This document shows, in pieces, positions 4,106 to 25,534 of a DNA stretch of 27,854 nucleotides; positions within the stretch are counted from its first letter, which is position 1; each line of letters begins with the position of its first letter. The notes beneath the pieces were generated by a model. It was not told the DNA's origin. It made no database searches and worked only from the letters and a program-made list of their open reading frames with translations. Both the position numbers and the translations under genes were made by a program. This DNA is from a virus. The stretch is taken from positions 1 to 27,854 of IMG/VR virus record IMGVR_UViG_3300008259_000439. The stretch is one strand, 5' to 3'.

Positions 4106-4975
4106 TTATTTATACTTTTTAAGTATCTGTGCAACTTGAGATAAGAATTCTCTTTCGATTGAGAACTGTCTGATTTCTTCAAAGTATCCACTTACAGAGA
4201 ATCCATTCAATTCACCACTTTTAACCTTATCCCATACCTCATCGTTTCTAACTTTCATTGATACAAACCAAGTTCCGACAGGTAAATCCTCATAACCGTA
4301 CTTGTTTGATTTATCTTGAGAATCTTCTTTAATCCAAGATTCAACAACATAAACATCCTTTGCTGCTTCACCATTGTGATTGGTATCGTTATTATCGATG
4401 TATTTGTATCTCATATATTTCTCAGCAATCATTTTGATTGTGTCAGAACTGAAATACACATAGTAAGGTTTACCACTGGCATCTTTCCTGAATATCTTTA
4501 AATCAGGAATCATTGCTGGTCCAACCACAATTCTTTTCTCATCATCCGTTTGGAACTTCTGTGATGACATCTTTTCCTTTTCGATTTGGTCAAGTTTCTT
4601 TTGTGCCCATTCAATACCCTCAGTTCCACCCCAAGCATCCCACATTAATCCACCACAACCTTCTTCGTAGGGTACATCTTTGTTTTGACGGTGACGTTCA
4701 AATGACGCCATTCTTGAGATTGTTTCCTCTGAGATGTTTTCGCCACCACACAATTGGCTTGCTCTCATTTTTCCAACGGGAGTTCCACAATCACCCCAAC
4801 CATTCTCCTCAGCAAATTTGATTGCTCTACAAGCATTGTTTTTTGCCGCATCGGGGTAATCATTATATGATTCAAATTCCTCTGATTTCTTTTTCTTCTT
4901 TCTTGGAACCTCATCAACAAATGGGGGTAATGTATTATCATATCCCAAATCTTCAGGATGTTTCTCACACGGCAT
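4106..4975 (-). CDS. XkdF-like prohead serine protease
   Basis: From ATG 4975 the product is 289 aa. Residues 35-130 form a Cys/Trp-containing N-terminal domain (FESYNDYPDAAKNNACRAIK, CGTPVGKMRASQL, GCGGLMWDAWGGT). From about residue 140 the sequence matches the XkdF-type phage protease family (Peptidase_S78_2): EKRIVVGPAMIPDLKIFRKD, then DTNHNGEA with a possible catalytic His (about 200), VVESWI with a possible catalytic Ser (about 213), LPVGTWFVSMKV and LNGFSVSGYFEE. The enzyme would cleave scaffold and capsid precursors inside the prohead. The frame is open further upstream, and a TTG start at 5068 would give a 104-base overlap with the previous gene. I prefer ATG 4975, with an 11-base overlap, as typical of coupled phage genes. 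The catalytic residues are assigned by analogy. Confidence 0.7.
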   Translation of the reverse strand: MPCEKHPEDLGYDNTLPPFVDEVPRKKKKKSEEFESYNDYPDAAKNNACRAIKFAEENGWGDCGTPVGKMRASQLCGGENISEETISRMASFERHRQNKDVPYEEGCGGLMWDAWGGTEGIEWAQKKLDQIEKEKMSSQKFQTDDEKRIVVGPAMIPDLKIFRKDASGKPYYVYFSSDTIKMIAEKYMRYKYIDNNDTNHNGEAAKDVYVVESWIKEDSQDKSNKYGYEDLPVGTWFVSMKVRNDEVWDKVKSGELNGFSVSGYFEEIRQFSIEREFLSQVAQILKKYK

Positions 4976-5717
4976 ATAGTATTTCAAATAATGGATAACT
5001 GAATTTCTCTTTTGATAATCCCAAGTTTCTTGCTGTACTTGGTGCCGCTCTACCTTCTTGTACCGCAACCAATGTTGGATTGGTAATGGTTGAAGGTTGT
5101 GGATAACCTATGATATCCGTTTCTGTCACCAATGAACTTAGAGGGAAATCACCTTCCAATGCTTTGTTCTTATTAACTGACGCTTTGTTTACAATATCAC
5201 CTGTTTTCTTATAACGAATCTTTGCCCATATGTGACGACAGTTATAACCACCTCTCCATACGATTGCTGGTGAACCAAAATCATTTACCAATGAATCCAT
5301 TTCCTCAACTCTCCATACGTAGTTCTTGTTGATTAAATCTTTACAGAAATCTCTTGTAGTATCAATAATAGCACGTTCCTTAATCTCAGGACGTAACATA
5401 TACTTATAACGGATTCTATACAGGGATTCGTCCCATTCACTATCGTTATTTGGGTTGGTGGCAAATCCCTCTTTACCGAAGTAATAAACATCATCTATCT
5501 CCCAACCATTATCTAATAGTTCTGTTTCATCTTGAGCAATTGCTGCAAGTTTCTCAAAGTAGATTTGGTCCTCACCTTCGGGGATGTGGAATTCTTCTTT
5601 TTCTTTGTTAAATGCAATCCAATTAACTTCTATTGCTGGTTCATCAACAAGAGAGATACTATCAATACCTGATAATTCATCCTCTTCGTCGATTCTAAGT
5701 TCAAATATTCTTTCCAT
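4965..5717 (-). CDS. MuF-like head morphogenesis protein with XkdF-type N-terminus
   Basis: The 250-aa product begins MERIFELRIDEED and has SISLVDEPAIEVNWIAFNKE at residues 20-39, a segment usually seen at the start of XkdF-like phage proteases. Residues 100-170 (YRIRYKYMLRPEIKER, TTRDFCKDLINKNYVW, VWRGGYNCRHIWAKIRYK) resemble the C-terminal part of the phage Mu F / SPP1 gp7 head morphogenesis domain, with its conserved RGGYNCRH motif. The remaining 80 residues look flexible. It would be a minor head protein that enters the procapsid. The protease core itself is in the next gene, in the +1 frame, so the two genes look like a split version of one longer protein. The start ATG at 5717 is clear and lies 17 bases after the preceding small gene. 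Confidence 0.55.
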   Translation of the reverse strand: MERIFELRIDEEDELSGIDSISLVDEPAIEVNWIAFNKEKEEFHIPEGEDQIYFEKLAAIAQDETELLDNGWEIDDVYYFGKEGFATNPNNDSEWDESLYRIRYKYMLRPEIKERAIIDTTRDFCKDLINKNYVWRVEEMDSLVNDFGSPAIVWRGGYNCRHIWAKIRYKKTGDIVNKASVNKNKALEGDFPLSSLVTETDIIGYPQPSTITNPTLVAVQEGRAAPSTARNLGLSKEKFSYPLFEILYAV

Positions 5718-5870: not shown

Positions 5871-8156
5871 TTACAGGGTTGATAAATCTTTTAATCTTGC
5901 TTGACGTTGTTGCATTGTAGTTAATTCATTCTCAACAACATATGTCTTAGTTATTATTGCATTTTGTTGCTGTGCTGGATTTGTTGTTAATGGATTATCA
6001 GGTAATGTAACCATTGCATTCCTATTGAATGATGTTCCACCACCCATTTGATTCATTGCGGATAATAACGGTGCAAACATTGTAACTGCTCCACGTGTCA
6101 TTATGGCTTCACCAGCTTCTGCTTCAATTATGGTTCCACCTTGTGCGTGTCTTCTTCCTCCAATTAAACCACCATCAGCATAGTTTCTACCCAAATTTTC
6201 TCCTCCTCCACCACCTGCGGCACCTTCAAATTTCGTTTTCTTAATATTGGCAATCTGAACACCTGTGGTAATACCTAATGCTAACGCATTTGCTCCTTTT
6301 ACAATCCAATCAAAAGGTGATGGTAAAGTAGATGGTTGAGTTAGAATTTGTATAATACCCGATGCTGCCGACATTAATGCGGTTGCTATTTGTAATTTTT
6401 TACGTTGTTCAAACGCTTTTTTACTTGTCTTAGCTTCCTCATCATATGAAGCGGCAACCGCACTTAAAACACCCGTAATTGCATTAATAGTTTGTGATGC
6501 AACTTCACCAATGGCTTGAATCTCTTGTTGTTTTAAATTCTTCTTTTGTTGTTGATATCTTGCTTCAATTTCTAATAACAACTGAGCATTTCCTGCTGCA
6601 TTCTGTCTTTCAATCTCGTAACCTTTTTCAAGTAACGCTCTTTGGTTTTCAAAATACGCTTGAGTACCCTTGGTTAATGTATCATTTCTTGTTTGAAGAA
6701 TTTGTAATTCAGTACTTAATTTTTTTAATTCATCATCCTTCTCTTTTTGCTTGGCATCATCTTTAATTTTCTTGATGTCGGCTTCTGCCGCTGCTGTAAG
6801 ATTTTTTCTAATCTCAGCTTTCTCTTCTTCAGATTTTTTGATGAATTCTTTGTCCTCTTCTAATTCTCTTAAATCTCTTACTTTCTGTTCTTCTCTCTGT
6901 GCAAGAGCTCTGGCTGTTTCGTCAGCAATTGCGGCAAGTTGTATATCCTTAACCTTATCGTTAAATTCTTTTTCAGCATTTAATTGGTCTTCGGTTAATT
7001 TAACAATTTCACCACTTCTTTCTGTCTTATCTTCTAGATAATCCTTTTCAAGATTATTTCTTTCAACTATTAATGCTTTATATTCTTTAGAATCTTTTTT
7101 CTCTAATTTTAATAAATCATTAATTCTCTTTAATTCACGTTGATAATCTTGGTCTTTTTGTACTTGTTCTGTATGTAGATTCTGTAATTCATCATCTGTA
7201 GTTTGTGCTTTAGCTCTTGCTAATTCAACCTCAGATTGTTTTACAGATTCATTAATATTAATTTCATCTTGAGCGGCTTGTTTTCTTGCTGCTGCAAGTT
7301 CCTTTGCTTTCTGTGCGGCTTCTTCCGCTTTTTGTTTTCTTTCTTCTTCTCTTTTCTTTGCTTCCTCTTGTCTTTCTTTTTCTTTCTCCGCCGCTTCTTT
7401 TGCTACCGTATCAATCTCACTGGTAACTCTTTTGATGTCTTTACTTGAAACACCCATTGATTCAACCAACCAACTAAATCCATCAGCAACATAACTAATT
7501 ACATTTGCTAGTGTTTCAAAGATTGGTACAGCAACTTTTTCAATTAATGCAAGTAATGGTCCAAGTAACTTTGAGAATGCAGAAGATACTTTATTTAAAG
7601 TTTCCTGACCTTTAGATGTTTTAGATAAAGATTCTTGGAAGAATTTAAATATACCAACAAGTGCGGTAATTGTAGCCAAAATTGGGTTGGCAACAAGTAC
7701 TTTAAACGCTTTATCAACACCTTGAATTGATTGACCAACCATACCAGCAATACCCGGCATTGTTGCCAATGCATCCTCAAATTTCATTGATTTTAGTGTG
7801 GCAATTTCTAATTGGTCACTATAATCATCAATTTGTTTTTTAGCTTTCGCCATTCCCGCCATATCACCCTTAGATTCGGCTTCTTGGAATGCAACGGTTG
7901 CTTGACGAACCTGAACACGAAGTGATTTAAATTTACCTTCGGTTTCATTTAAAATCTCTTTTGTTTGTTGAAAAGCTTTATCCGCGTTCTTTAGTTCTTT
8001 GTTAAGATTTTTGTATTCTTCAGAACCAATTGGAAGTGAGTTAATTTTTTTAGTGGTATCCTGATAAACTTTCTGAAAATCTTTAACAGAAGTTTTAGCC
8101 AAATCTATCTCCTTACCGTCAACCTTTATTATAAAATTTGATTCTTTTAGCGCCAT
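5871..8156 (-). CDS. Tail tape measure protein
   Basis: The 761-aa product has the layout of a tape measure protein, which sets tail length during assembly and leaves the tail lumen at infection. Residues 1-125 are helical and charged. Residues 130-235 are hydrophobic with two or three possible membrane-inserting segments (VLVANPILATITALVGIFKF; LLGPLLALIEKVAVPIF). Residues 250-560 are a long coiled coil rich in Glu, Lys, Gln and Ala. A second hydrophobic region at 590-640 leads into a Gly-rich part (EGAAGGGGGENLGRNYADGG, GEAIMTRGAVTMFAPLL). The last region, with 'GGxxxGxxHxxGG' and 'AExGEAI', is frequent in the C-terminus of these proteins. At about 0.15 nm per residue it would set a tail of roughly 110-115 nm. 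The expected chaperone is not next to it but 15 kb upstream. Confidence 0.8.
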   Translation of the reverse strand: MALKESNFIIKVDGKEIDLAKTSVKDFQKVYQDTTKKINSLPIGSEEYKNLNKELKNADKAFQQTKEILNETEGKFKSLRVQVRQATVAFQEAESKGDMAGMAKAKKQIDDYSDQLEIATLKSMKFEDALATMPGIAGMVGQSIQGVDKAFKVLVANPILATITALVGIFKFFQESLSKTSKGQETLNKVSSAFSKLLGPLLALIEKVAVPIFETLANVISYVADGFSWLVESMGVSSKDIKRVTSEIDTVAKEAAEKEKERQEEAKKREEERKQKAEEAAQKAKELAAARKQAAQDEININESVKQSEVELARAKAQTTDDELQNLHTEQVQKDQDYQRELKRINDLLKLEKKDSKEYKALIVERNNLEKDYLEDKTERSGEIVKLTEDQLNAEKEFNDKVKDIQLAAIADETARALAQREEQKVRDLRELEEDKEFIKKSEEEKAEIRKNLTAAAEADIKKIKDDAKQKEKDDELKKLSTELQILQTRNDTLTKGTQAYFENQRALLEKGYEIERQNAAGNAQLLLEIEARYQQQKKNLKQQEIQAIGEVASQTINAITGVLSAVAASYDEEAKTSKKAFEQRKKLQIATALMSAASGIIQILTQPSTLPSPFDWIVKGANALALGITTGVQIANIKKTKFEGAAGGGGGENLGRNYADGGLIGGRRHAQGGTIIEAEAGEAIMTRGAVTMFAPLLSAMNQMGGGTSFNRNAMVTLPDNPLTTNPAQQQNAIITKTYVVENELTTMQQRQARLKDLSTL

Positions 8157-9469: not shown

Positions 9470-12400
9470 TTACGGACAGTTATAGGTGGCTAGTATAACA
9501 CCAGTATTGTCGATTTGGAACGCTCTTGATGGTCCCACACCCAACTCTTTGAATGCTATCCAATTATTATTACCCACAGTTGGTGTACTTGGGTAAGAAT
9601 CATAAACCACATCACCAATTGTTAATCCTGTTAATGGTTTGGTTGTAATATATCCACGACTTGACAAGTATGTTGAACAAGCTGTTGGACCATCTACTGC
9701 ATCAGGTATAGTTCTACCTAACATACCAAATGTACTTGGAGTACTTGGAGTTGGAGTTAAGGTAGGTGTTCTTGTCAACGTAGGTGTTGGTGAACCTGGC
9801 GTTGCTGTTAATGTCGGTGTTGAGGTAATCGTTGGTGTTGGAGTTGGTGTTGGGAATGGAGGACAATCGTTAATTGTACCGTCAGCATTTAATCTAACGA
9901 TTCCATTGGCGGTTACTCCGTTATATGTTGTGAATTCACCAACAACCACAATCTTACCATCGAATTGTAATTCAATATCAAATATTCTTTGGAATGAATT
10001 AGTGTAACCAACAGTAAATGATGTATCTAAAGTTCCATCAGAATTTAATTTAACTAAATCTACATTTGTTAATGTTGATGTGTCAAATTCCACACCACCA
10101 ACTATTATACTATTATCAGGATTTAATACCATTGCTCTTACCTGACCATTACTTAAAATTGGTGTAAATGTGTTATCATATCCACCATCAGAATTTAATC
10201 TTACAACATTACCTTTAACAATACCATTGAAACTTAAATTAGAACCTCCTCCAAGAATTATTTTTCCATCACTTAATACTAAAATATCATCCACAATATT
10301 GGTAATATCACTACCAAGAGTAATAAACGATGTATCAATTGAACCGTCAGAATTTAATTTTAAAATACCACCACCTACGGCTGTACCATTATATGAATCA
10401 AATCGGCCACCAATTAATATTTTACCATCAGATAAAACTTCTATTTCACGAACTTGGTGAACTCCAGTAACACTCCACTCAAATCCTGTTCCTATATTAA
10501 ATGTATTATCAATTGAACCATCAGAATTTAATCTAATTAAACCATTTCTTTGATATGTTACACTATTAACTGTATACGCTGAGAATCCACCACCATATAA
10601 AATTTTACCATCGTTTTGTATTGCTATTATTTCATCACTAATCACAGTTGTTATTCCTGTTGTTGAACCGCTATAAAAAGTATTATCGATTGTTCCATTT
10701 ACATTATGTCTTATTAATGCGGATGGGAAATAACTTACTATTATTTTTCCATCAGATTGAAATTTAAAATCACCAATATAAGTATATGTTATTCCCGTTG
10801 GGATTGTTAAAGTAAAACCAGTGTTTAATGCTCCTGTTGAATATAATTTAGCCATATCAGTTTTTGATATGCCATTATAAGTTGTAAATGCACCACTTGT
10901 ATATATGAAATTACCTTGAATCTCGGCATCAAATACAGATGAATTAAATCCTGTCCCACTATCAAAACAAGAACCAACTGTAACTCTGTATTCAAAGTTG
11001 TAAGAATCAGGTACAGTTGATGCAGTAAATGTTACTACGGTACTGTTTGAACCATAATTCAACTGTGCTGCGGTTATAAACGTATCAACGATACCGTTGT
11101 TACCATTCTCATCATCTGTGGTGTAATCTCTTCTGAAAACGGTTAAATCATAGTAATTCTGACCGTTTGTATATAGTTCAACACTCACAGTATCACCGGT
11201 GAATAAATAAGTTGAATAGAACTCAGTTACGTCATCGTATGTACGTTCTCTAAGTTCACCATTAACAATCACTTGGTAGTAATCAATTGGTTCTGTATCA
11301 ATCTCCTTGTCAAATGACATAATCAACGAACCTCTCATACCTTCTGCTGGTACCGATGCGGTTGGGGTTTGAGTTAATGTAGGAGTTGGAGTTGGTGTTA
11401 AATATGTTCCGTGATATGTTGAAGAACCTGTGGTAATTCCATACGCACTTGCTGCAGTATAGAAATCACTACACTCAGCAAATAAATTAAATAGAATACC
11501 AGCAGTTCCTGTTGAAAAAATAAATTGTGGCCAACCCCAAACATTTAATGGTCCCTGTGTAGGTAAATTTGTAATTAGATTTGTATATAAAGTATCAGAA
11601 CTTCTTGGTAAACCACTAGCGTTATATTGTGCTTCAGTAACCTCAAATATAGTATAAGGAACATATTTGTACCCACTTTGGTTATCTCTAACACACGCTG
11701 TAAAGGTACTCACACCGGTTGTGTTTCCACTTAATAAAATACCAATATTATAATCATAAAATGTACTATAACCATAACTTGTTCCACTCAACGATGGATT
11801 GGTCATATCAGTTTCAAACTTAAATACCACTGATTGATTGTCACAATAGTAGTATTTAAAGTATCTCTTTGGATATGTGTTAACAACATTGTTATATTGT
11901 ACCAATTCTACCTTTGTTAATTCAGGGTTAGTTAAATCATAATCATTTATCTTGTTCCACGTGAAATATTGTTCTCTAATTTTGATTATATCATTCGGTC
12001 TTAGATTATCTATATCAGATAATTTTAGATTGAAATAACCACTTAAAAATCTTGTATCTTTGTCATATAAATTATTTACTCTATTTGAGTAGAATAAATT
12101 GTATGCGTCGTTATCTGTGTATACCTCATATGGTGCTACACCTAAATCAACAGGTTGTTCTGAATTAAATAAAACAGAAATAGAATCGTTATTAAGTTTA
12201 TTTGTATCAGGGTTACCCACCGGCATTGTATGACTTACAATCGGTAAATTGTTTGATTGACGTGGACCTGTACCATCTGATTCACAAACGTAAACCACAT
12301 TGGTTAGAACACCACCTGAGAATGGTAAGAATTCACCTACGGTATCCAAGAATGGTGAGAAGTTACCAACCCAATAGAATAGTTTTGGTTTAGTTTTAAC

Positions 12401-14575
12401 ACCAGTGTATTGCCAGTTTACTTTTTGAGTATCACCACTAGCACTTGATGAAGATGATGACGCATAGTTAATACCAAGTGGTAATTTTACGTTACCATTT
12501 GGAGCGGTATCAGGGGTATCCCATTGTCTTAATATTTCTGATGAGAATATGGTATCAATCTTCTTTGTTTGTGATTTAAAATCAGTTGGATTATATACCT
12601 TATTTTCACCATATAAACGGTTGTTTTGGTCCTTAAATGTCTTATTACCATAATCACCATCTTCTGTATCTGTTACAATCAATTCTGATTCCACATAATT
12701 CAGTGCTGGTTCTACAGTAAATCCTTTATCGTATGATAATTTCTCGGTCCAATCGTGTATCTCTCCTGTACCAATATAATACGTATATGGTTCAACAATA
12801 ATATTGGTTGGATTATTTGGGTCAGGAACAAAAACTAAATTAAATTTCTTTGCGATAGATGCTAATAAATCTATCTGTTTTAGATTAATATCCATCACCA
12901 AACCAAAATCTACCAAATCACCATCTTGATAAACAACTGTTGTATTTGGTGGTTGTGGAAGATATGCCAATGGTGATGCCGATTCCTCAACATTTGAATA
13001 TATATCGTTTATACCAACAAAGTTTTGATATTCTGCTTGGAAAGGACATCCAAATCCACAATCAACATATTGTTGTGACCAATAAGTTGTTGTTGCTCCT
13101 GTTTGTAAAGGTGCAATATTAAGTGGTAGTTGATATATGGTAGGTGGACCAAAACAAGCTTGTTGTTCAATATCTAATGCCAAACCAATTGAATCAGAAC
13201 ATATACAAGGTATACCTGTACCTTTCTTAACAACATATGCGGTTACTGTTGTAATATCATATGGATACCAAGTTGAACAATTAAACTGTTGACCGGCATT
13301 AACACTAAATTGTAATACTACTTCAACACCGTCAATTGGTAATACTTGTGGTGCTTGTGTTTGATATGAGAATTTGGTTGTGTCAGAACTGAAATAACCA
13401 TACATATACAACATATTAAACCACGGTGTATTGAAGAATTCAGATTCAATGGTATATCCATATGTTTTAAACATTAATTGTATTAATGATTTGATATTCA
13501 ATGATGGTTTTAATTGATTATCAAACAAACCATCTTCAGGTGAATTGATTCTAAATCTTTTTACACCGGCAGAATACGCTGCTGCGGTACTTGCGTAAGC
13601 ACCAGCAATAGTTGTTGTATATAATCTTGTTGCGGTAGTTGTTGTACCTGATACTTGTACAGTATCTCCTGAATAGTTATAACCATTGTGTACAACAGGG
13701 TAGAAATAAAGTGGTGGTTTATCACCTTGCCACGGAATATAATCACCCCAAGTTTGAACAACAAATTTGTTGAATGTATGATTGAAGTGATATTCTGAAT
13801 CATTATAATCCAAATCTTTTAGTAAGTTGTTACCAATCTTACCAAATAAATCACCAACAGTTGAGAATAAAGTTACATCATATTCTACCTTGGTATTTAC
13901 AACTGAAATCTTATTCAGTTTCATATAACCATTGAAATATGATTGGTCATTAATTAATACAGAACAAGGTATTCTCAATATTGGATTGAAGTACAATGTT
14001 GATATATCTACATTATAGAAATTTTCAAAGAATCTATTATTCTTTTTTGAGCCAGGTAATTGTAAACTAATTGATAAATCACTGTTTCTTTTACCGATAT
14101 CTTGTAACTCCGCAAATGATTTGGTAATCTTGATTGGAATATCACCATATAAATCTAAAAAATCGTATTCGTAAATTACAGGTGGAATTGGATTTAGAAC
14201 TAATGAATTAACTGTAGTTGTTCCTGTATTGGTAATTACAAATTGAATGAAATCACCAATATTAACATTTATTGCACTAGATGCGTTGGTAATATATAAA
14301 CTACTGTATGAAGTATAATATTGACCATTAACATTAATTGTAAGAAAACTAAAATCCTCAAGGTCATAACTAAATTGACCACCCGTATTATTAACAGTTA
14401 GATTAATTGTTGATGTAACACCTGTAGCAGTTCCCATATATGGGTTACTCGTAGTACCACTACCTGAAAATGTAAAACCTGTTGAAGCAATAGATAATGA
14501 ACCAGTTGTGATATTAATACTATCGTTTGGTTTATTGGTTTGTACTCGTAATACTGTCTGTTGTTGTTGTGCCAT
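9470..14575 (-). CDS. Large tail hub/spike-like protein with delta-60 repeats
   Basis: The 1701-aa product is the largest in the window. Residues 1-1055 look like a baseplate hub or tail-associated protein: YDFLDLYGDIPIKITKSFAEL and LPGSKKNNRFFENFYNVDI near residue 150-190, then KQIDLLASIAKKFNLVFVPD around 570 with an adjoining beta-rich stretch, plus a short Ser run (ASSSSSSAS). Residues 1058-1077 are a Thr-Pro linker. Residues 1206-1572 hold about seven delta-60 repeats, the beta-propeller-like family with 'LNSDGSIDNTF' and 'SDGKILIGGxFxxYNG' phrases. A second Thr-Pro linker (1574-1613) leads to an 88-residue C-terminal domain (ACSTYLSSRGYITTK, GVILATYNCP) of a type often seen at fibre ends. 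The protein starts two bases after the stop of the 535-aa gene. It probably sits at the tail tip and binds the host surface. The hub assignment is inference; the repeats are plain. Confidence 0.6.
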   Translation of the reverse strand: MAQQQQTVLRVQTNKPNDSINITTGSLSIASTGFTFSGSGTTSNPYMGTATGVTSTINLTVNNTGGQFSYDLEDFSFLTINVNGQYYTSYSSLYITNASSAINVNIGDFIQFVITNTGTTTVNSLVLNPIPPVIYEYDFLDLYGDIPIKITKSFAELQDIGKRNSDLSISLQLPGSKKNNRFFENFYNVDISTLYFNPILRIPCSVLINDQSYFNGYMKLNKISVVNTKVEYDVTLFSTVGDLFGKIGNNLLKDLDYNDSEYHFNHTFNKFVVQTWGDYIPWQGDKPPLYFYPVVHNGYNYSGDTVQVSGTTTTATRLYTTTIAGAYASTAAAYSAGVKRFRINSPEDGLFDNQLKPSLNIKSLIQLMFKTYGYTIESEFFNTPWFNMLYMYGYFSSDTTKFSYQTQAPQVLPIDGVEVVLQFSVNAGQQFNCSTWYPYDITTVTAYVVKKGTGIPCICSDSIGLALDIEQQACFGPPTIYQLPLNIAPLQTGATTTYWSQQYVDCGFGCPFQAEYQNFVGINDIYSNVEESASPLAYLPQPPNTTVVYQDGDLVDFGLVMDINLKQIDLLASIAKKFNLVFVPDPNNPTNIIVEPYTYYIGTGEIHDWTEKLSYDKGFTVEPALNYVESELIVTDTEDGDYGNKTFKDQNNRLYGENKVYNPTDFKSQTKKIDTIFSSEILRQWDTPDTAPNGNVKLPLGINYASSSSSSASGDTQKVNWQYTGVKTKPKLFYWVGNFSPFLDTVGEFLPFSGGVLTNVVYVCESDGTGPRQSNNLPIVSHTMPVGNPDTNKLNNDSISVLFNSEQPVDLGVAPYEVYTDNDAYNLFYSNRVNNLYDKDTRFLSGYFNLKLSDIDNLRPNDIIKIREQYFTWNKINDYDLTNPELTKVELVQYNNVVNTYPKRYFKYYYCDNQSVVFKFETDMTNPSLSGTSYGYSTFYDYNIGILLSGNTTGVSTFTACVRDNQSGYKYVPYTIFEVTEAQYNASGLPRSSDTLYTNLITNLPTQGPLNVWGWPQFIFSTGTAGILFNLFAECSDFYTAASAYGITTGSSTYHGTYLTPTPTPTLTQTPTASVPAEGMRGSLIMSFDKEIDTEPIDYYQVIVNGELRERTYDDVTEFYSTYLFTGDTVSVELYTNGQNYYDLTVFRRDYTTDDENGNNGIVDTFITAAQLNYGSNSTVVTFTASTVPDSYNFEYRVTVGSCFDSGTGFNSSVFDAEIQGNFIYTSGAFTTYNGISKTDMAKLYSTGALNTGFTLTIPTGITYTYIGDFKFQSDGKIIVSYFPSALIRHNVNGTIDNTFYSGSTTGITTVISDEIIAIQNDGKILYGGGFSAYTVNSVTYQRNGLIRLNSDGSIDNTFNIGTGFEWSVTGVHQVREIEVLSDGKILIGGRFDSYNGTAVGGGILKLNSDGSIDTSFITLGSDITNIVDDILVLSDGKIILGGGSNLSFNGIVKGNVVRLNSDGGYDNTFTPILSNGQVRAMVLNPDNSIIVGGVEFDTSTLTNVDLVKLNSDGTLDTSFTVGYTNSFQRIFDIELQFDGKIVVVGEFTTYNGVTANGIVRLNADGTINDCPPFPTPTPTPTITSTPTLTATPGSPTPTLTRTPTLTPTPSTPSTFGMLGRTIPDAVDGPTACSTYLSSRGYITTKPLTGLTIGDVVYDSYPSTPTVGNNNWIAFKELGVGPSRAFQIDNTGVILATYNCP
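9733..9855 (-). repeat. Thr-Pro linker repeat, C-terminal copy in the 1701-aa protein
   Basis: This codes about 40 residues of mostly alternating Thr and Pro (PTPTPTPTITSTPTLTATPG, then PTPTLTRTPTLTPTPSTPS). It lies between the last delta-60 repeat and the C-terminal domain. Confidence 0.85.
9865..10955 (-). repeat. Delta-60 repeat array
   Basis: About seven imperfect repeats of 50-55 residues code for phrases such as LNSDGSIDNTF and SDGKILIGGRF. The plus strand shows the repeats as recurring ccatcagaatttaat-type words near 10028, 10187, 10348 and 10520. Divergence between copies shows it is an old array and not a recent tandem duplication. Confidence 0.8.
11345..11402 (-). repeat. Thr-Pro linker repeat, internal copy in the 1701-aa protein
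   Basis: This codes TPTPTPTLTQTPTASVPAEG at residues 1058-1077, at the junction between the hub-like part and the exposed beta-rich part that carries the delta-60 repeats. It marks a domain boundary. Confidence 0.8.
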
Positions 14576-17776: not shown

Positions 17777-17896
17777 TTATATTAAGTTTTTAACACTTGC
17801 TAAGTACAAATCATTACTGTCGAATGATACCAATGTTACCACATCCACACCTGTTGTTGTAGTTGGAACATATGATGAACCACTTACTTGTTTAAC
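17777..17896 (-). other. Probable -1 frameshift extension of the fibre gene (slip site 17890-17896)
   Basis: The zero frame of the fibre ends ...GCG TTA AAC AAG TAA. The heptamer GTTAAAC lies just before the stop. A -1 slip there gives CAA GTA AGT and 37 more codons to TAA at 17777-17779, adding QVSGSSYVPTTTTGVDVVTL followed by VSFDSNDLYLASVKNLI. This peptide reads like a normal fibre C-terminus, and its stop lies one base before the ATG of the next gene. Without it, 108 bases would be non-coding in an otherwise packed region. The -1 frame is closed by a TAA nine codons before the GTA codon, so the shift must happen within a narrow window that contains the heptamer. A one-base deletion (mutation or assembly error) is the alternative. 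Confidence 0.6.
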
Positions 17897-20800
17897 GCGG
17901 TATTTGAGTTAACTGTTAGAGGTAATACATTACCTTGAACAGAACCCGTAATAACTGTTTTCTCAATATCAAGGGTATAAGTTGTTACACCACCTGCGTT
18001 TGTTAACTGCAATCTACCTGTGGTACCACCATTTGTAGCTTCCCATTGTTGTTGTGAATAGTTTGAACCTGTATCAACAGTTGAGTTCCACAATGATTGT
18101 GAAGCTGGTGTGTTAAGGTTAAAGTTATCAATGGTTAATGTGGTTGGAGAGGTTGCGTTTAACTTAACAAAGTTCTCCATTGGTTGTGCGAAGAATGTAC
18201 CTCCGTTGAATACAATTTCACCATTGGTTTGTGTTTGTACACCACTCACAACAAGTCCACCACCTCTAACATTCAATGTTCCACTTACACTTAGAGAACC
18301 AGTTACAGTATGGTCTGAACCACTTATATTTAATGAACCGGTGGTTCTATTGTTAACAAGTTCCAATGAACCTGATTGAACCATACCACTTCTTACAGAT
18401 AATAAACCTGAAGAAGATACAAACAATGATGTTCTTCTTGCTGTTGCTCCCGTACCTGTACCTAATGCGAATACAGTTTGTTCAGAATCAGATAATAAAC
18501 TACCTGTTTCGTTATATCTACCTAAGAAAACACTACCACCACCAGTATTGACTGTACCATCAGCGTGAGAACCTGTAATTGTTAAGGATTGACCAACAAC
18601 TAATGAATTAACAAAAGAACCACTTGTGGTTGCCTCATCCCTACCGACGATAATGATACTATTACCTTGAATTGTGTTATTGAGTATGATTCTTCCAAGG
18701 TTAACAGCACTTGTACCTCGAGAATTCAACGTGACCGAACCACCAATATTGTTATTGTTAACATTCATTATCTGTGACGTACCGATGGCACCAAGTCCAC
18801 CAATAAAATCATTAACAAAAGTAACAGTACCATTAAGGTTATTATTAGTTATACTTATAGAACCACTTCTTGCAGTGCTAGTAACTGTTCCATTAATATT
18901 ATTCGATTGAATTTGGCGAACAGTTGGGATTGAATTAAAACCAAGGACAGTAGAATTATAAGTAAAACTACCGTTAACGTTATTAGCCACAAAAAATGGT
19001 AATCTATTATCCTGTGAAGTATTGAAACTTACAGTACCGGCAACTATGTTATTATTAATAGTAGCACTACCTGTTAATGAACCTGTACTAAATTGTAACA
19101 AAAATGGTGCTGTGGTACCTCTACCAATGTTATGTGACATTGATACAGGTAAAATTTGTCCTCTGTTTGTTACACTTATTTGTGGTGGTACTGAATATAT
19201 ATTTGAACCTTGAGTACTACCTAAAATAACATTATCAAATACATTACTATTTGCAGTAGGTCTATTAAATATAATATTATTAGAACTTGATACAACCAAA
19301 CTTTGAGATACTGTATTAGCAACAACAACGTCTTGGAAGAATATATTACCACCAGAAGTAAGACTTGATGTTACATATGAGAAGTTTCTACCAATTAATG
19401 AGCCCGTTCTCTCACCTCTCATAAATAAACTACCACTGATATCTACAGAACCTGAAATAAATTGACTTCCACTAAATACGTTTGAACCTGTGGTTGCGAA
19501 TGAACCTGAATTAACATTGGCATTTAATGCGTAAGATGCGGTTACTGCGTATGATGATGATACTGAATTCTGTGCAAATGATGATGAACCTTCTAATGAA
19601 CCTGTGATACCATTTGTAACTACTAATGAACCCGTTACGTTTACATTACCATTAATATTTTGTTGTCCAACAAAGTTATTAGAACCTGTGGTTGCGAAAT
19701 AACTCACGTCTGGCATTGGTGCAAAAGATGCGGATACCGCATTTTGTGCTTGTGAACTACTAATTGCGTTGGTCGCAAATGAGGAGGAAACCGCAGTGTC
19801 AGCATTCTGTGCGTAAGAAGAAGACACCGCCGTGTCAGCATTTGTTGCGAATGATGAGGAAACTGCAGTTCCCGCATTAGATGCGTATGAGGAACTAATC
19901 GCATTCTGAGCAAATGATGAACTAATTGCGTTATCACTGTTAACAGAATGTGAAGAAGATATTGCATTAGTAGCAAAACTTGAACTAATTGCATTATCTG
20001 AATTTATCGAATGTGATGATGATACTGCGTTTGTTGCGAATGATGAGGAAACTGCGGTTCCTGCATTAGATGCATATGATGATGATATCGCGTTAGTTGC
20101 GAAACTTGAACTGATTGCGGTATCTGAATTTATCGAATGTGATGATGATACTGCATTCTGTGATTGGGAAGAACTTACAGCGTAATTTGAGTAAGATGAA
20201 GAAACCGATGTTAATATGTTAGTTGTACCTTGTTGGAAACTTGTACCACTACCATTAACAGAAGTTAATGATATTGTACCATTAACACTTGATAAGGTTG
20301 CACTTACTAAGAAACTTCCTGTATTTGTTGTATCAGGTGCGTAAGATGCTGAAACAGCATTTTGTGCAAATGATGAGGACACAGAGTTCTGTGCAAAAGA
20401 TGAACTGATTGCGGTATCTGCGTTTAATGAGTGTGATGAACTAACCGCTTGTGCTGCGTGTGATGCAGATGTTGCGGTTGATGCGTTACCTAATAATGAA
20501 CCCGTAATACCGTTTGTAACAGATAATGAACCTGATACATCGGTTTTAATTTTCATTGTGATAACGGTATCGTCATCAGTAATATTTGAATCGTATAAGT
20601 GGTCACCGCCCTGACCTCTTGTAATTGTATTTAAAGTTGGATATGGTTCATCACCCAATGAACCTGTATGTTTTGGACCTGATAATAATCCACCACCTGT
20701 GTACATTGCTCCTGTTACGTTCTCATAAATCCAATGGTTCTTTTGAGAATCCCAAAGTAATGATGCTGTAGCATTTGATGAACCTGAATCGTATGCAACC

Positions 20801-22338
20801 AATCCACCAAATCTCTGTGCCGGTACTGCGATGTTTACCGCAATGGTGTTACCTGTTACAGATATCTGTGATGATGTTACATAAGTAATTGATGCTGAGG
20901 TTGCATAAAGGGTATCAGTTACATATAATGAACCTGAAATGGTTTGTGTACCATTAAATGTATTTGAACCTGTTGTTGCCAATCCCGCTTGAAGTGGTGA
21001 TTTGTTAACCCATTGTCCATAAGAACCTGTTGTATATACCAATAAATCACCAGCAACAGGAGTTGTAATATTTACATCGTGAAGTTCTGTTAATTCATAA
21101 CCATTATCAACGGTGATATATGCGGAACCATTATTTAATTGTGCTCTTAATACTTGTCCCAATCTAACCTCGTGATATGGTGTTGGTGGTATTTGATTTG
21201 TATATTGTCCTGAAGATGATAGATATAATACATCACCAGCGGTCATACCACTTGTATTGATACCGGTAACTTTACCTAAAACAACAATGTTTGCGAAAGC
21301 ATTGTACACAACATCTTCACTCAACATACCTATGGTATTTGCTGAGTTTTGGTCATCCTCCCAAGATGCAACATTAAATAATGGGTTATCACCAACGGCA
21401 CCTGTAATTCTTACAATTGTACCTCTTGTTAAACCTGCCAAGTTATCACACTTACCAACAACGATTACATCGTTTGCGATAGATGCGGTTGCTGCATTTG
21501 TTGCGAATGAAGAAGAAACTGCGTTGGTGGCAAAACTTGAACTAATTGCATTTGTTGCGAATGAACTACTAATTGCGTTAGTGGCAAATGATGAACTGAT
21601 TGCGTTTGTTGCGAATGAACTACTAATTGCGTTTGTTGCGAATGAAGAAGAAACTGCGTTCTGTGCTTGAGATGAACTAACACTTGTTTGTGCGAACGAT
21701 GCTGAGGTTGCGTTAACTACGTTATTAACAGTAACAGTATTTGTTGTACCATTACCTTTGGTTACTGTGATTGTATCACTTACCCCTGTAACACTTGTTA
21801 CAAATGAACCACTCTCAGTTTCAGTTACATAAGAACCTGTTTGAGCAATTAACGCATTAACCTTGGTATCATTTGATGAAGTATATGCATTGAAAGAAGA
21901 TGTTAAAAGATATGAGTTTAAAGAACCTGTTGTTGCTAAACTACCTGTAATACTTTCAATAGAATTTAATCTATTATTTTGTGCTAAATCCGTCGTCGCG
22001 ATTGAACCCGATAACGAAGACAACGATGAAGTAGTAGCATAACTACCAGTAGCATTAATGAGAGAATTAACCCTTGTGTCATTTGATGATGTATATGCGT
22101 TAAATGATGATGTGGTTACCAATGAACCACTATCAATAGTTATCCCTGTCAATCCACTACCATCCCCACGGAATGAACCGGTGATGACAATGGAAGAGGT
22201 TGATGCCAACATTGGGAGATTATTTCCCAATCCATCTTGTACATATTGGAGTGTTCCTGTTACTCCTGTTGTACTATCTTGAAGTTTTAACAATCCTTGG
22301 TAAGATTGTGATACATATAAATTTGTTAACTGACCCAT
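17884..22338 (-). CDS. Long tail fibre protein with Ser/Ala repeats
   Basis: The 1484-aa product is a fibrous tail protein. Residues 1-70 form a head domain (MGQLTNLYVSQSYQGLLKLQ). Two copies of a SSFNAYTSSNDTxVNxLI segment lie at about 77-100 and 147-170. Residues 220-291 are 9-residue repeats (I/V-SSSFATNA). Residues 298-440 form a folded domain (VIVVGKCDNLAGLTRGTIVR, MTAGDVLYLSSSG) common in phage fibres. Further repeat blocks with SSSFAQNA and SSYASNA follow at about 640-890. The last 500 residues are Asn/Gly/Ser/Thr-rich and suggest a beta-helix. It should form a trimeric shaft that binds the host. The zero frame ends LTVNSNTALNK, and a -1 shift would extend it to 1520 aa. The leader after the preceding gene is A-rich with no Shine-Dalgarno sequence. 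Confidence 0.7.
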   Translation of the reverse strand: MGQLTNLYVSQSYQGLLKLQDSTTGVTGTLQYVQDGLGNNLPMLASTSSIVITGSFRGDGSGLTGITIDSGSLVTTSSFNAYTSSNDTRVNSLINATGSYATTSSLSSLSGSIATTDLAQNNRLNSIESITGSLATTGSLNSYLLTSSFNAYTSSNDTKVNALIAQTGSYVTETESGSFVTSVTGVSDTITVTKGNGTTNTVTVNNVVNATSASFAQTSVSSSQAQNAVSSSFATNAISSSFATNAISSSFATNAISSSFATNAISSSFATNAVSSSFATNAATASIANDVIVVGKCDNLAGLTRGTIVRITGAVGDNPLFNVASWEDDQNSANTIGMLSEDVVYNAFANIVVLGKVTGINTSGMTAGDVLYLSSSGQYTNQIPPTPYHEVRLGQVLRAQLNNGSAYITVDNGYELTELHDVNITTPVAGDLLVYTTGSYGQWVNKSPLQAGLATTGSNTFNGTQTISGSLYVTDTLYATSASITYVTSSQISVTGNTIAVNIAVPAQRFGGLVAYDSGSSNATASLLWDSQKNHWIYENVTGAMYTGGGLLSGPKHTGSLGDEPYPTLNTITRGQGGDHLYDSNITDDDTVITMKIKTDVSGSLSVTNGITGSLLGNASTATSASHAAQAVSSSHSLNADTAISSSFAQNSVSSSFAQNAVSASYAPDTTNTGSFLVSATLSSVNGTISLTSVNGSGTSFQQGTTNILTSVSSSYSNYAVSSSQSQNAVSSSHSINSDTAISSSFATNAISSSYASNAGTAVSSSFATNAVSSSHSINSDNAISSSFATNAISSSHSVNSDNAISSSFAQNAISSSYASNAGTAVSSSFATNADTAVSSSYAQNADTAVSSSFATNAISSSQAQNAVSASFAPMPDVSYFATTGSNNFVGQQNINGNVNVTGSLVVTNGITGSLEGSSSFAQNSVSSSYAVTASYALNANVNSGSFATTGSNVFSGSQFISGSVDISGSLFMRGERTGSLIGRNFSYVTSSLTSGGNIFFQDVVVANTVSQSLVVSSSNNIIFNRPTANSNVFDNVILGSTQGSNIYSVPPQISVTNRGQILPVSMSHNIGRGTTAPFLLQFSTGSLTGSATINNNIVAGTVSFNTSQDNRLPFFVANNVNGSFTYNSTVLGFNSIPTVRQIQSNNINGTVTSTARSGSISITNNNLNGTVTFVNDFIGGLGAIGTSQIMNVNNNNIGGSVTLNSRGTSAVNLGRIILNNTIQGNSIIIVGRDEATTSGSFVNSLVVGQSLTITGSHADGTVNTGGGSVFLGRYNETGSLLSDSEQTVFALGTGTGATARRTSLFVSSSGLLSVRSGMVQSGSLELVNNRTTGSLNISGSDHTVTGSLSVSGTLNVRGGGLVVSGVQTQTNGEIVFNGGTFFAQPMENFVKLNATSPTTLTIDNFNLNTPASQSLWNSTVDTGSNYSQQQWEATNGGTTGRLQLTNAGGVTTYTLDIEKTVITGSVQGNVLPLTVNSNTALNK
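19690..20175 (-). repeat. Imperfect Ser/Ala-rich repeat block in the fibre gene
   Basis: This stretch codes a long run of units like ISSSFATNA, VSSSHSINSDNA, VSSSYASNAGTA and ISSSFAQNA. Unit lengths are mixed (9 to about 12 residues), and the DNA copies differ mainly at third codon positions. It appears to be a longer relative of the regular 9-residue block at 21466-21654. Confidence 0.75.
21466..21654 (-). repeat. Seven tandem 27-bp repeats coding (I/V)SSSFATNA
   Basis: Seven exact protein copies of a 9-residue unit at residues 229-291 are coded by 27-bp repeats, with one diverged copy (VSSSQAQNA) before them. The DNA copies use different synonymous codons (for example gcatttgttgcgaatga against gcgttagtggcaaatga on the plus strand), so the array is kept by selection on the protein. 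Confidence 0.9.
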
Positions 22339-22362: not shown

Positions 22363-23367
22363 TTAAACATTCTCCCAATCCTGAGAAATAGTGTTCCACA
22401 GTTCAGCCAATTCAGCCCAAGTATTATTGGTAAATGGTAACTCTGGTAAATCACATCTGTTGTAATCAAATGGTTGCGTTATTGTTAAGTTTAATGTCCA
22501 TCCAGCGAGAACCGTTTCAAATCTCTCCAAAAATGGTTCAACTGTTGCGTTCCACTCGCTCTCGTACTCTGATAAATATAAAATTGTGAATATATCTTTC
22601 GTAATTTCCAATGTGTCACTCATCACATCTCTTTGGTTGGAATAGGTATTATCTAATCTATCCGCAACAATGATTTGGAAATTGTATGTTAATTGGTTTT
22701 GGTCCAACACAGCATTATTCGGAACAACGTACATTCTCGTATACTCAGGTTCCTTTTCTGTTTCAATATCCATTGTAATCTGTGTTATGTCCCCAAAACC
22801 AAAACTGTTAATCTGTTCGTGTGCTCGTGCAATCTCCTCAAAATCTTCAATAACTTGTTTGTAGTTAACAAGATTTACACTTGGAGGTAATGTTAAACCT
22901 GAGAATGGTAATACACACTCATTGTAATCAAATGGTTGTTCTAACGTAATGTTAAGGGTCCATCCCCCTAATATTGTTTCAAATCGTTCCAAGAACGGGA
23001 TAACCTGTGGTCCCCACTCTGGTTCATAGTACCAACTGAAATTACCGTATTGTGCGGTATAAGATTGGTACATAATGGTGAACATATCTTTGGCAATCTC
23101 CAACGTATCTGACATAACGTCCCTTTGGTTGGAATAATCCTCATTAATTCTGTCACAGATAATAATGGCGAAGTTATATAATAACCTGTTTTGTGCTAGC
23201 GTAACCTGACCCGGTACCACGTACATTTTTGTATATACGGGTTCCTGTTTGGTTTCAATATCCATTGTTATCTGCGTGATATCACCAAACCCAAAAGAGT
23301 TGATTTGTGGGTGGTAATATGCCATCCCACTCATATCTTGGATAATTTGTTTTAAATTGGTAATCAT
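22363..23367 (-). CDS. Tandemly duplicated tail-completion-like protein
   Basis: The 334-aa product consists of two copies of one domain of about 150 residues (about 4-155 and 167-310) plus a short acidic C-terminus. Both copies carry INSFGFGDITQITMDIET, then MYVVP, NQRDVMSDTLEI, PFLERFETxLxGWTLN and PFDYN.C.LP. Copy 2 lacks about ten residues found between SDTLEI and FLERFE in copy 1. The domain is an alpha/beta phage protein; the 'ERFET.L.GWTLN' end recalls small neck or tail-terminator proteins, but I cannot prove that family. It lies 18 bases after the chaperone-like gene and 24 before the fibre. A duplicated neck protein could build a ring with half the number of chains, or the two halves may bind different partners. 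Confidence 0.55.
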   Translation of the reverse strand: MITNLKQIIQDMSGMAYYHPQINSFGFGDITQITMDIETKQEPVYTKMYVVPGQVTLAQNRLLYNFAIIICDRINEDYSNQRDVMSDTLEIAKDMFTIMYQSYTAQYGNFSWYYEPEWGPQVIPFLERFETILGGWTLNITLEQPFDYNECVLPFSGLTLPPSVNLVNYKQVIEDFEEIARAHEQINSFGFGDITQITMDIETEKEPEYTRMYVVPNNAVLDQNQLTYNFQIIVADRLDNTYSNQRDVMSDTLEITKDIFTILYLSEYESEWNATVEPFLERFETVLAGWTLNLTITQPFDYNRCDLPELPFTNNTWAELAELWNTISQDWENV

Positions 23368-23385
23368 CTACAATTAAATATAAAT

Positions 23386-23688
23386 TTAGTGGGTTTGAGT
23401 TCCCATCATTTGTTTTTGTTTCCTTTCAATCAATCTATCTTTTTCAATCATATAAGATAATTGATTCATAACCGATATTATTGTTTGGGTAATGATTTCT
23501 TTATGTCGTGTAAAGTCGTCTTGAGCAACTCTGTTGAGAACCAAGTACCATCCAAATCTTTTCGAAAAATTACCTTCCAAAGAATCGTCCTCCATTTCCA
23601 AGCGAATTTTATCTGCGTCCAACTTATCTTCATCCAATTCTTCAAAGATGTTGGGGTAAAGTTTAATAAGTTCTTTGCGAAAAGTGTA
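23386..23688 (-). CDS. Tail-chaperone-like gene, 3' part (-1 frame)
   Basis: This is the continuation of the gene starting at 24218, in the -1 frame after the T9 run. It reads YTFRKELIKLYPNIFEELDE, then DADKIRLEMEDDSLEGNFSK, RFGWYLVLNRVAQDDFTRHK and a long C-terminal helix with SVMNQLSYMIEKDRLIERKQ; the stop is TAA at 23386. This looks like a natural helical protein, whereas the zero frame over the same DNA is rich in Trp and Lys and looks like a shadow. A separate start is possible only at TTG 23637, in the middle of a helix, which is unlikely. A joined product would be 277 aa. The helical C-terminus could be the part that contacts the tape measure protein, as the T part of lambda GT does. 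Confidence 0.55.
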   Translation of the reverse strand, partial: YTFRKELIKLYPNIFEELDEDKLDADKIRLEMEDDSLEGNFSKRFGWYLVLNRVAQDDFTRHKEIITQTIISVMNQLSYMIEKDRLIERKQKQMMGTQTH

Positions 23689-24218
23689 AAAAAAAACTGA
23701 CCACCTAACGCAATCTCACAATCAAGTTTGGTTTTAAAGAGTTCTGCTCTACCCTCCAAACTTTCTTGGTTGTACTTTTCTATCTCAAACTTATGTTTAC
23801 CATTATCTTTTGTAATTGGTCGATATAAGATTGCGGTGATTACGTGTAGGTAATCTAATATCTCACTATCTTTCTTGGTTAATAATGTATCCAAATCCGC
23901 ATATTCACCAAATGACATCTTCTTCCAATTGGGTATAAAACCGTATTCCACACCATCTAATGTAAATCTATCCACAAAACCGGGTTTTTCATCAGGTATA
24001 ATTTCTAACAATCTATTGGTTATAAAATGTACTTTCTGATGTTCAGCATCCATAAGTTTCTCAACAGGTGCTCCTGTTAAAACACTAACTAACTTAGCTT
24101 GGAAGTATTCATCATCAAACAAACCATTTATCTTGTATAGTTTTACATAGTTTTCAAGTGTAATGTACGTGGGTATTTTATATTCAATACCTTCTAATTC
24201 AAAAGTTATTTTACTCAT
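23478..24218 (-). CDS. Tail-chaperone-like gene, 5' part (zero frame)
   Basis: The zero frame codes 246 aa from ATG 24218, which overlaps the terminase stop by four bases. Residues 1-177 look natural: MSKITFELEGIEYKIPTYIT, then SFGEYADLDTLLTKKDSEIL, 'LHVITAILYRPI', 'EKYNQESLEGRAELFKTKLDCEIALGGQFFF'. The pattern 'FGEYxxLD...I..YRP...Y......RxxxF...x...ALGxxFF' is seen in small tail or baseplate assembly proteins. After the T9 run (23688-23696) the zero frame turns unnatural (NWMKISWTQIKFAWKWRTIL) and runs 69 codons to a stop. Lambda-type tail assembly chaperones are also made in two forms by a -1 shift, which fits. It is a probable assembly chaperone for the tape measure protein, though the tape measure gene lies 15 kb downstream. 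Confidence 0.55.
   Translation of the reverse strand: MSKITFELEGIEYKIPTYITLENYVKLYKINGLFDDEYFQAKLVSVLTGAPVEKLMDAEHQKVHFITNRLLEIIPDEKPGFVDRFTLDGVEYGFIPNWKKMSFGEYADLDTLLTKKDSEILDYLHVITAILYRPITKDNGKHKFEIEKYNQESLEGRAELFKTKLDCEIALGGQFFFTLFAKNLLNFTPTSLKNWMKISWTQIKFAWKWRTILWKVIFRKDLDGTWFSTELLKTTLHDIKKSLPKQ
23688..23696 (-). other. T9 homopolymer slip site
   Basis: The minus strand reads CAG TTTTTTTTT ACA in the zero frame. A -1 slip, or one extra T, gives CAG TTT TTT TTT TAC ACT TTT and joins the natural-looking halves of the gene. Runs of nine A or T are known sites of transcriptional slippage in AT-rich genomes, and also of assembly errors. Confidence 0.7.
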
Positions 24219-25534
24219 AATCGTGCTATGGCGTATCTGCCACTATTTTTTGGTTTAAGTTCATAATACATACGCATCATAATTGCGTCAGCAAAGTCAG
24301 GAGAACGACCTAATAAACGTTTCTGTTCTTCCTTACTCATTACCGCAACCTTATTATCTTTATCCACATCTTTAAGTTTAATACTCATTAGTTCTTGAGT
24401 TAAAGAATCTATCAGTGATGGGTTGGATAGGTTTATAGATATATTTCCTTTTTTAAACTCATCCGCCAACTTAACATAACATTGGGATTTAAGATTGGAA
24501 TAGTTTTCATTATGTAATGGAGATGAATTGTTAATAAAGTTCTTACCCCTAATCTGGTCCGCAACACCCCCTCCAACACCATCAGAATCGATTATAACAT
24601 TCTGTGGATGTATTCCGTGGATTTGAATAAGAGTTTTAATCTCATCAGCAACTTGTACGGTATCTATCTTTTGATATTGTTTTACATCAATCAAACATAA
24701 TCCAACCCATATACAAATCATCGTAGAATCCGACCCAAATCGAGCAACGTCAACCGACATATACTTTGTATCACCAATGTTAATATCATTACGGAAAACG
24801 GATGATACGATACTGTCATAATCAAATACCATCCCTATCTCATCTGTGTATTCCCAATTACCTTGAAGTAATCTCTTTTGTTGTGGTAATGGTAATGATT
24901 TAAGGTTCTCAATATAATCGGGACTGATGTGTGGATTATCTGTTACCAACGATTGAACAAACTTCTTATTTGATTCTAAATCCCCCTTAATGAAGGGTAC
25001 AAAGAATTCTGATTTAATATAGTTTGTGCCAGGGTTACAGGTCATCAATATCTTTGGTTTAAGATTATATTCTGTTAACTTGTATCTTATACGACTTTTG
25101 ATTACTGCGTATGCGGTTCTACTTGATTGTTGTGCTTCGTCAATTGCCGCACCTGTAATTTCAAGTGAACCCAAACTATCGAAGTTAATATCTGAGGGAT
25201 TGTGTTGGATATCTTTAAAAATGATTTCTGACCCATTGTAAAAGGTCAGGACGTTGTTTTGACCGTTGTAGGTATAGTGTGTACCACTTTTTAATTCAAG
25301 TGTCTGTAATACCTCTAAAATCGTTTTTAGTGTGGTTAGTTTAAGATGTTGTAATACGGTACGTGCAACCAACCATCTTGTACCAGAATATTTTAATGAC
25401 ATAGTACAAACCCATAACGCCAATATAAATGTTTTACCACCGGCAACACCACCACCAAATACTACTTCGGTAGTAGAATCATCAGTTAGATATTCCCACG
25501 CTTCTGTTTGACGTTTAGTTAGTTTTATGTCCAC
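24215..25534 (-). CDS. terL: Terminase large subunit
   Basis: The 439-aa product is the packaging motor ATPase and nuclease, which acts at the portal and cuts genome ends. The ATPase half has Walker A GGGVAGGKT (residues 27-35), Walker B LEITGAAIDEAQ with Asp132-Glu133, and a coupling motif around MTCNPGTN (164-171). The nuclease half has an RNase H-like acidic triad: Asp262 in MSVDVARFGSD, Asp317 in VIIDSDGVGGG and Asp416 in SPDFADAIMM. Length and motifs are complete. The start is GTG at 25534, which overlaps the HNH gene by 20 bases; the sequence from MDIKLTKRQTEAWEYLT matches where this family normally begins. The next gene starts inside its stop codon region (four-base overlap). Confidence 0.92.
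   Translation of the reverse strand: MDIKLTKRQTEAWEYLTDDSTTEVVFGGGVAGGKTFILALWVCTMSLKYSGTRWLVARTVLQHLKLTTLKTILEVLQTLELKSGTHYTYNGQNNVLTFYNGSEIIFKDIQHNPSDINFDSLGSLEITGAAIDEAQQSSRTAYAVIKSRIRYKLTEYNLKPKILMTCNPGTNYIKSEFFVPFIKGDLESNKKFVQSLVTDNPHISPDYIENLKSLPLPQQKRLLQGNWEYTDEIGMVFDYDSIVSSVFRNDINIGDTKYMSVDVARFGSDSTMICIWVGLCLIDVKQYQKIDTVQVADEIKTLIQIHGIHPQNVIIDSDGVGGGVADQIRGKNFINNSSPLHNENYSNLKSQCYVKLADEFKKGNISINLSNPSLIDSLTQELMSIKLKDVDKDNKVAVMSKEEQKRLLGRSPDFADAIMMRMYYELKPKNSGRYAIARL

Follow-up and report, generated by a model that had tools for sequence, protein, structure and literature searches.

Conserved switch to the -1 frame at a T9 run in a terminase-adjacent gene of flavobacterial phages, with two C-terminal tails very likely under selection

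Next to the terminase large subunit (TerL) gene of a virus lies a gene whose beginning and end are written in different reading frames, which raises the questions of whether the frame change is real, how it is made, and what its products would do. The window analyzed here is the whole 27,854-nucleotide stretch of this virus (IMG/VR record IMGVR_UViG_3300008259_000439, positions 1 to 27,854), and its relevant features are given in Table 1. An earlier note had placed the first 177 and the last 100 residues of the gene in different frames, joined by a -1 step at T9, and both the step and its coordinates are correct; a second reading of the last T of the run leads into the -1 frame (YTFRKELIKLYPNIFEEL..., 100 residues). 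We find that this frame switch is conserved, with certainty, and the explanation that we favor, at a probability of roughly two-thirds, is that tailed phages of Flavobacteriia have here a gene with programmed -1 frameshifting, two selected tails, and a G/GT-like role.

Table 1. Positions of the frameshift gene, its parts, and the neighboring genes in the window
Feature	Position	Strand	Basis or remark
0-frame ORF, 246 aa	24218..23478	minus	start within last bases of terminase large subunit gene
Common N-terminal part, 177 codons (M...LGGQFFF), in both products	23688..24218	minus	ORF; conserved in all relatives
T9 run, TTT TTT TTT, codons 175-177	23688..23696	minus	read directly (A9 on plus strand)
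Heptamer T_TTT_TTT, -1 slippage register	23688..23694	minus	124/124 junctions
CAG codon directly 5' of T9	23697..23699	minus	codon-usage excess; 107/124 junctions
0-frame tail, 69 codons + stop	23478..23687	minus	stop avoidance, residue conservation
-1-frame tail, 100 codons + stop, begins YTFRKELIKLYPN...	23386..23688	minus	stop at 23386-23388
Stretch very likely dual coding (207 bases), frames 0 and -1	23481..23687	minus	selection on both frames
TerL gene, directly upstream, 4-base overlap	24215..25534	minus	phrog_2 7.7e-36, Pfam Terminase_3
Next downstream gene, 334 aa, two phrog_30964-like domain copies (function unassigned)	22363..23367	minus	
Tape-measure-like gene, 761 aa, ~15 kb downstream of frameshift gene	5871..8156	minus	phrog_1506 1.3e-9

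Profile and pattern scans gathered about 200 loci, and 124 distinct junctions from viral contigs, Flavobacteriaceae genomes, and the isolated phages P12024S and P12024L were compared. The C-terminal part lies in the -1 frame in every one of them, which is far more than chance would give. The run is T9 in 111 junctions, T10 in 6, and T7 in 7, with no T8, and the sole element common to all is T_TTT_TTT, a heptamer of the X_XXY_YYZ type, in the -1 slippage register (124/124, including 7/7 T7 members). The IMG/VR scan found one 100% identical contig (L002), with the same CAG-T9 and -1 step, and relatives at 47 to 51% identity had CAG and then T9 at the same site, with the C part in -1. The divergent members include a prophage-like copy in Galbibacter pacificus CAA-3, a Winogradskyella MAG (two contigs), and two further Flavobacteriaceae genomes, and a locus from the pattern scan (L005) is a true distant member of the gene family. 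The comparison of homologues that the earlier note had proposed shows the run and the place of the frame change kept in 124/124 junctions and the protein coded in one frame in none; two exact-pattern scans for an in-frame fused relative returned unrelated chance matches only. Runs of this kind are scarce outside the slip site, which accounts for about 79 of the 87 A/T runs of at least nine in 576 kb (82 related loci), and they are rarer in these loci than dinucleotide shuffles of the window predict. Homopolymer runs are prone to error, but the proposal that one wrong T, from sequencing or assembly, explains the frame change can be discarded, since the same T run and -1 step occur in 124 distinct sequences from many samples and assemblies, including a cultured bacterium (Galbibacter pacificus) and two isolated phages, and the T7 and T10 members would need to be wrong too.

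Upstream of the run, the -1 frame is closed within 9 to 36 codons. The -1 tail has its earliest possible start at a median of codon 21, after the conserved FYxxRKE residues. Since conserved residues precede the first start and the frame is closed upstream, the -1 part can only be produced as a fusion, and an independent start of this part is ruled out. Within the -1 tail, the RKE...GW...NQL residues are conserved.

The zero frame after the run had been taken for a shadow of the coding frame, and this is refuted by the lack of stops and by a conservation of residues that exceeds the controls. The frame is open for at least 62 codons past the slip in 108/108 main-clade members. In 61 representatives (<80% identity), 0 stops were found in 3,782 codons, compared to 188 ± 9 expected when the -1 codons were redrawn by each gene's usage and 124 ± 8 (lowest, 100) when synonymous codons were shuffled inside the C part. 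An earlier set of 44 had 3 observed stops versus 153 expected, with 643 versus 627 in the N part read at the same offset and 108 versus 127 in the C part past the overlap as controls. In the same set, the mean pairwise identity of the zero frame was 0.403 versus 0.273 expected, a ratio of 1.48, with control ratios of 1.20 in the N part, through inherited codon use, and of 0.97 past the overlap. The single position that shows this best is alignment column 34, where the third base is G in 43/44 and the 0-frame residue is Arg in 37/44; columns 24, 31, and 38 repeatedly have Trp in the 0 frame. Stop avoidance is the strongest of these signals and would suit a tail that is merely kept stop-free, so that ribosome release is avoided or the mRNA is kept translated, and that is functionless as a protein; part of the residue conservation may likewise be inherited synonymous codon use, as in the N-part control. 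We regard this alternative as improbable because the zero-frame residues are conserved beyond a simulation in which stops were forbidden (0.40 versus 0.285 ± 0.004) and because the Arg at column 34 holds at a position where the -1 frame has E, Q, A, L, V, P, S, or K. On these sequence comparisons, both tails are very likely protein coding under selection, and given selection on both, the 207 bases after the slip would be dual coding. The earlier idea of a homopolymer-based switch of the G/GT type stands as far as the universally conserved junction is concerned but not in the zero-frame shadow that was part of the same description.

Among the divergent members, the open length of the 0 frame past the slip is 25 (P12024), 40, 50, 55, 60, 67, or 76 codons. 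Several of these openings exceed chance (p 0.000 to 0.03), but those of P12024 and of L124 do not. A long and conserved 0-frame tail is thus mainly found in the clade to which the window belongs. The 0-frame tail looks as if it was overprinted on an older -1 part, a polarity that we infer.

The switch itself is probably made by ribosomal slippage at the run, to judge from the pattern of run lengths and registers, although polymerase slippage may contribute or even be the main route. Because any T9 run holds an in-register heptamer, the register is uninformative in the T9 members. T7 accounts for 5 changes in the maximum-likelihood tree, at least 4 of them forced by well-supported branches, and is nested among T9 members. 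All 7 T7 members read NNT TTT TTT (Thr ACT in six and Arg CGT in one), which is the sole T7 phase that keeps the heptamer in register. The presence of T7 on at least 4 to 5 branches, always with the in-register heptamer that tandem ribosomal slippage requires, favors ribosomal -1 frameshifting. Three points count against this reading: T9 is retained in three codon phases, which is more than tandem ribosomal slippage needs, U_UUU_UUU is weakly shifty on Escherichia coli ribosomes (PMC5009743), and a stimulatory RNA structure was looked for in vain. Of the Gln codons before the run, 39/42 are CAG, compared to 27% CAG elsewhere in these genes, and the base just before the run is constrained too. 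Ribosomal -1 sites usually, but not universally, have a stem-loop or pseudoknot stimulator downstream. No downstream RNA structure was detected in 45 representatives at 12 offsets, where the mean z score of pseudoknot-free folding against shuffles was about 0 in every folding window, and the T7 members had no such structure special to them by folding energy versus shuffles. A Shine-Dalgarno-like upstream stimulator was considered and rejected, as the codons before CAG vary (GGTGGT, GGAGCA, and GGGTCT) and are unconserved.

In the competing mechanism, the host RNA polymerase would add one U (or drop two) at T9, so that part of the mRNAs encode the fusion, and both tails would still be made. We take this alternative seriously but consider it unlikely. 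Polymerase slippage is steeply length dependent, and T7 is too short for efficient slippage. A homopolymer of about nine or more is not shared by all members, 7/124 having T7, and these seven still need the -1 frame and without exception have the heptamer in register, also where this places a Thr ACT or Arg CGT codon at the site. In its favor, the run is 9 or 10 in 117/124 junctions, in three codon phases and without T8, long A/T runs are otherwise rare, and an RNA stimulator was not found. Bacterial polymerases are also known to slip on nine A/T, about the length that this type of slippage requires, and the heptamer is a weak site for E. coli ribosomes (PMC5009743).

With ribosomal slippage as the preferred mechanism, and since the 0 frame is conserved as protein code, two isoforms are predicted that share the 177-residue domain and differ in their tails. 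Most ribosomes would pass T9 unshifted and make a 246-aa protein that ends with the basic 69-aa frame-0 tail, and a minority would shift back by one base on U_UUU_UUU, giving a 277-aa protein with the 100-aa -1 tail. The 0-frame tail of the window is Trp rich, with a net charge of +9 and a pI of 10.4, and the -1 tail has a net charge of -3 and a pI of 5.4; the family averages are +10.6 with 5% Trp for the former and -4.8 for the latter. AF2 models the N part as a fold of a beta-hairpin plus helices, with a pLDDT of about 80 to 90 over most of it, and the 0-frame tail as two helices (residues 192 to 217 and 225 to 242) with moderate to low confidence. The model of the -1 C part had no structural match in the PDB. 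By analogy, the pair would most likely work like lambda gpG/gpGT, with the common domain binding the tape measure and the -1 tail recruiting the tail-tube protein, and the extra 0-frame tail would be a lineage-specific overprinted addition. In this explanation, we infer the product ratio, the choice of ribosomal over polymerase slippage, and the tail-assembly role. With dual coding beyond the slip, frameshifting would determine in what proportion two different C-terminal domains are made. A stronger proposal is that the switch does not choose between a short and a long chaperone, as in lambda, but between two full-length isoforms with different functional C-terminal domains, each with its own tail-assembly partner: in frame 0 an amphipathic tail, basic and Trp rich, that arose de novo by overprinting, and in -1 the older T-like tail. 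We give this proposal even odds.

A role as a tail assembly chaperone is plausible by analogy. The frameshift lies at the end of the N domain and fuses a second domain to it in 124/124 junctions, as in G/GT, and tail and neck genes lie downstream. The top PDB match of the N domain by both aligners was 2OB9, the HK97 tail assembly chaperone (gp13), although the match is weak by either measure (Foldseek E of 1.3; VIA-align Z of 4.3 over 72 aa with an rmsd of 3.4 Å). In BFVD, the structural matches of the N domain were in P12024S and Flavobacterium phage 6H, and one annotated tail assembly chaperone and one tape measure chaperone were found below the threshold. Sequence searches gave no credible relatives in the PDB and Pfam, no match to a Pfam tail-chaperone profile in 43 members of the gene family at an E value of ≤1, and, in PHROG, matches of the N domain only to families without an assigned function (phrog_32199). 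The gene adjoins TerL, about 15 kb from the tape-measure-like gene, and does not lie between the major tail protein and tape measure genes. The gene is thus G/GT-like by design but agrees with the tail chaperones in neither position nor profile and is a candidate member of that family; the tail-chaperone label of the earlier note is plausible.

It is possible, though doubtful, that the programmed frameshift serves some other virion protein, such as one of the neck or connector. The place of the gene after TerL and ahead of neck/tail-completion-like genes, and not in front of the tape measure gene, together with the absent chaperone profile match, points in this direction, but the length, the G/GT-like design, the HK97 chaperone as the top fold match, and the weak BFVD matches to annotated tail chaperones do not. 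The gene order at the TerL end of the window recurs in a related locus (L118) and in P12024S. TerL is followed by the frameshift gene and phrog_30964, and P12024S next has a tail-completion/neck protein (phrog_5) and, further on, a tape-measure-like protein. In the window, the 334-aa product of the next gene is a tandem duplication of a domain of about 150 aa (HPQINSFGFGDITQITMDIET.../HEQINSFGFGDITQITMDIET...), and this phrog_30964-like domain is present as a single copy in L118 and P12024S.

In textbook frameshifting of phage tail chaperone genes, translation without a shift stops shortly past the slip site. Tail assembly chaperones made by a -1 frameshift include lambda G/GT and its relatives (PMC5009743) and that of TP901-1 (PMC4493119). 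Like lambda G/GT, the gene found here has a common N domain and a -1 slip that gives a fusion of about 280 aa, and it is part of a block of virion genes; among solved folds, that of HK97 gp13 comes closest to its N domain. It differs from lambda G/GT in the slippery site (U_UUU_UUU in a bare T9 instead of a GGGAAAG-type site), in a 0 frame that is open and conserved for 62 to 99 codons past the slip instead of ending soon after, and in adjoining TerL instead of the tape measure gene. Thermus dnaX and Shigella mxiE/spa, which use transcriptional slippage at T9/A9 (PMC5009743), likewise combine a nine-base A/T run with two frames, but in the family studied here T7 members persist, the heptamer is in register, and both downstream frames appear selected. 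The conserved second C terminus wholly in an overlapping frame resembles the frameshift-accessed overlapping ORFs of RNA viruses, such as arterivirus nsp2 TF (PMC5009743), although the present case is a morphogenesis-type gene of a double-stranded DNA phage. No earlier description of this two-tailed frameshift gene was found in the open-licence literature.

The closest isolated examples are the Persicivirga/Nonlabens phages P12024S (genes 38 and 39; JQ823122) and P12024L (genes 40 and 41; JQ823123), which have a homologous N part, about 30% identical to the Galbibacter prophage copy, and a -1 C part at T9. They differ from the window in a 0 frame that closes 25 codons past the slip, without long dual coding. 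The frameshift is unannotated in both records, which list two separate hypothetical genes and truncate the -1 domain at an internal start. The -1 domain is thus missed by gene callers, and neither phrog_32199, which covers the N part (L118, 1.6e-23), nor phrog_30964, the next gene, records the -1 part or the switch. The family extends across aquatic metagenomes and Flavobacteriia and combines a stimulator-free T9 slip with what is very likely more than 60 codons of dual coding, and its T7, T9, and T10 members in three codon phases form a natural series for separating ribosomal from polymerase slippage in Bacteroidota.

Some minor observations concern related loci and the rest of the window. 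Gp10 of Flavobacterium phage 6H (L125, 9900-10927, minus strand) is a structural relative of the N domain by the BFVD match only; it matches only 190/293 positions of phrog_25418 and is followed by two further frames, so that this locus may have one or two frame changes or errors. In the window, separate genes at 181-1341 and 4965-5717 (minus strand) match positions 12-335 and 422-520 of phrog_33693 (portal); they are separated by about 3.6 kb that include a protease-like gene and possibly encode a split portal protein. The virion block also holds a gene for a 1,701-aa protein with zero PHROG matches (9470-14575, minus strand). The 1,484-aa protein encoded at 17884-22338 (minus strand) has long repeats of the A-x-S-S-S type, with tandem repeats in its gene at 19918-20157 and 21493-21660, and is probably a fibre or adhesin.
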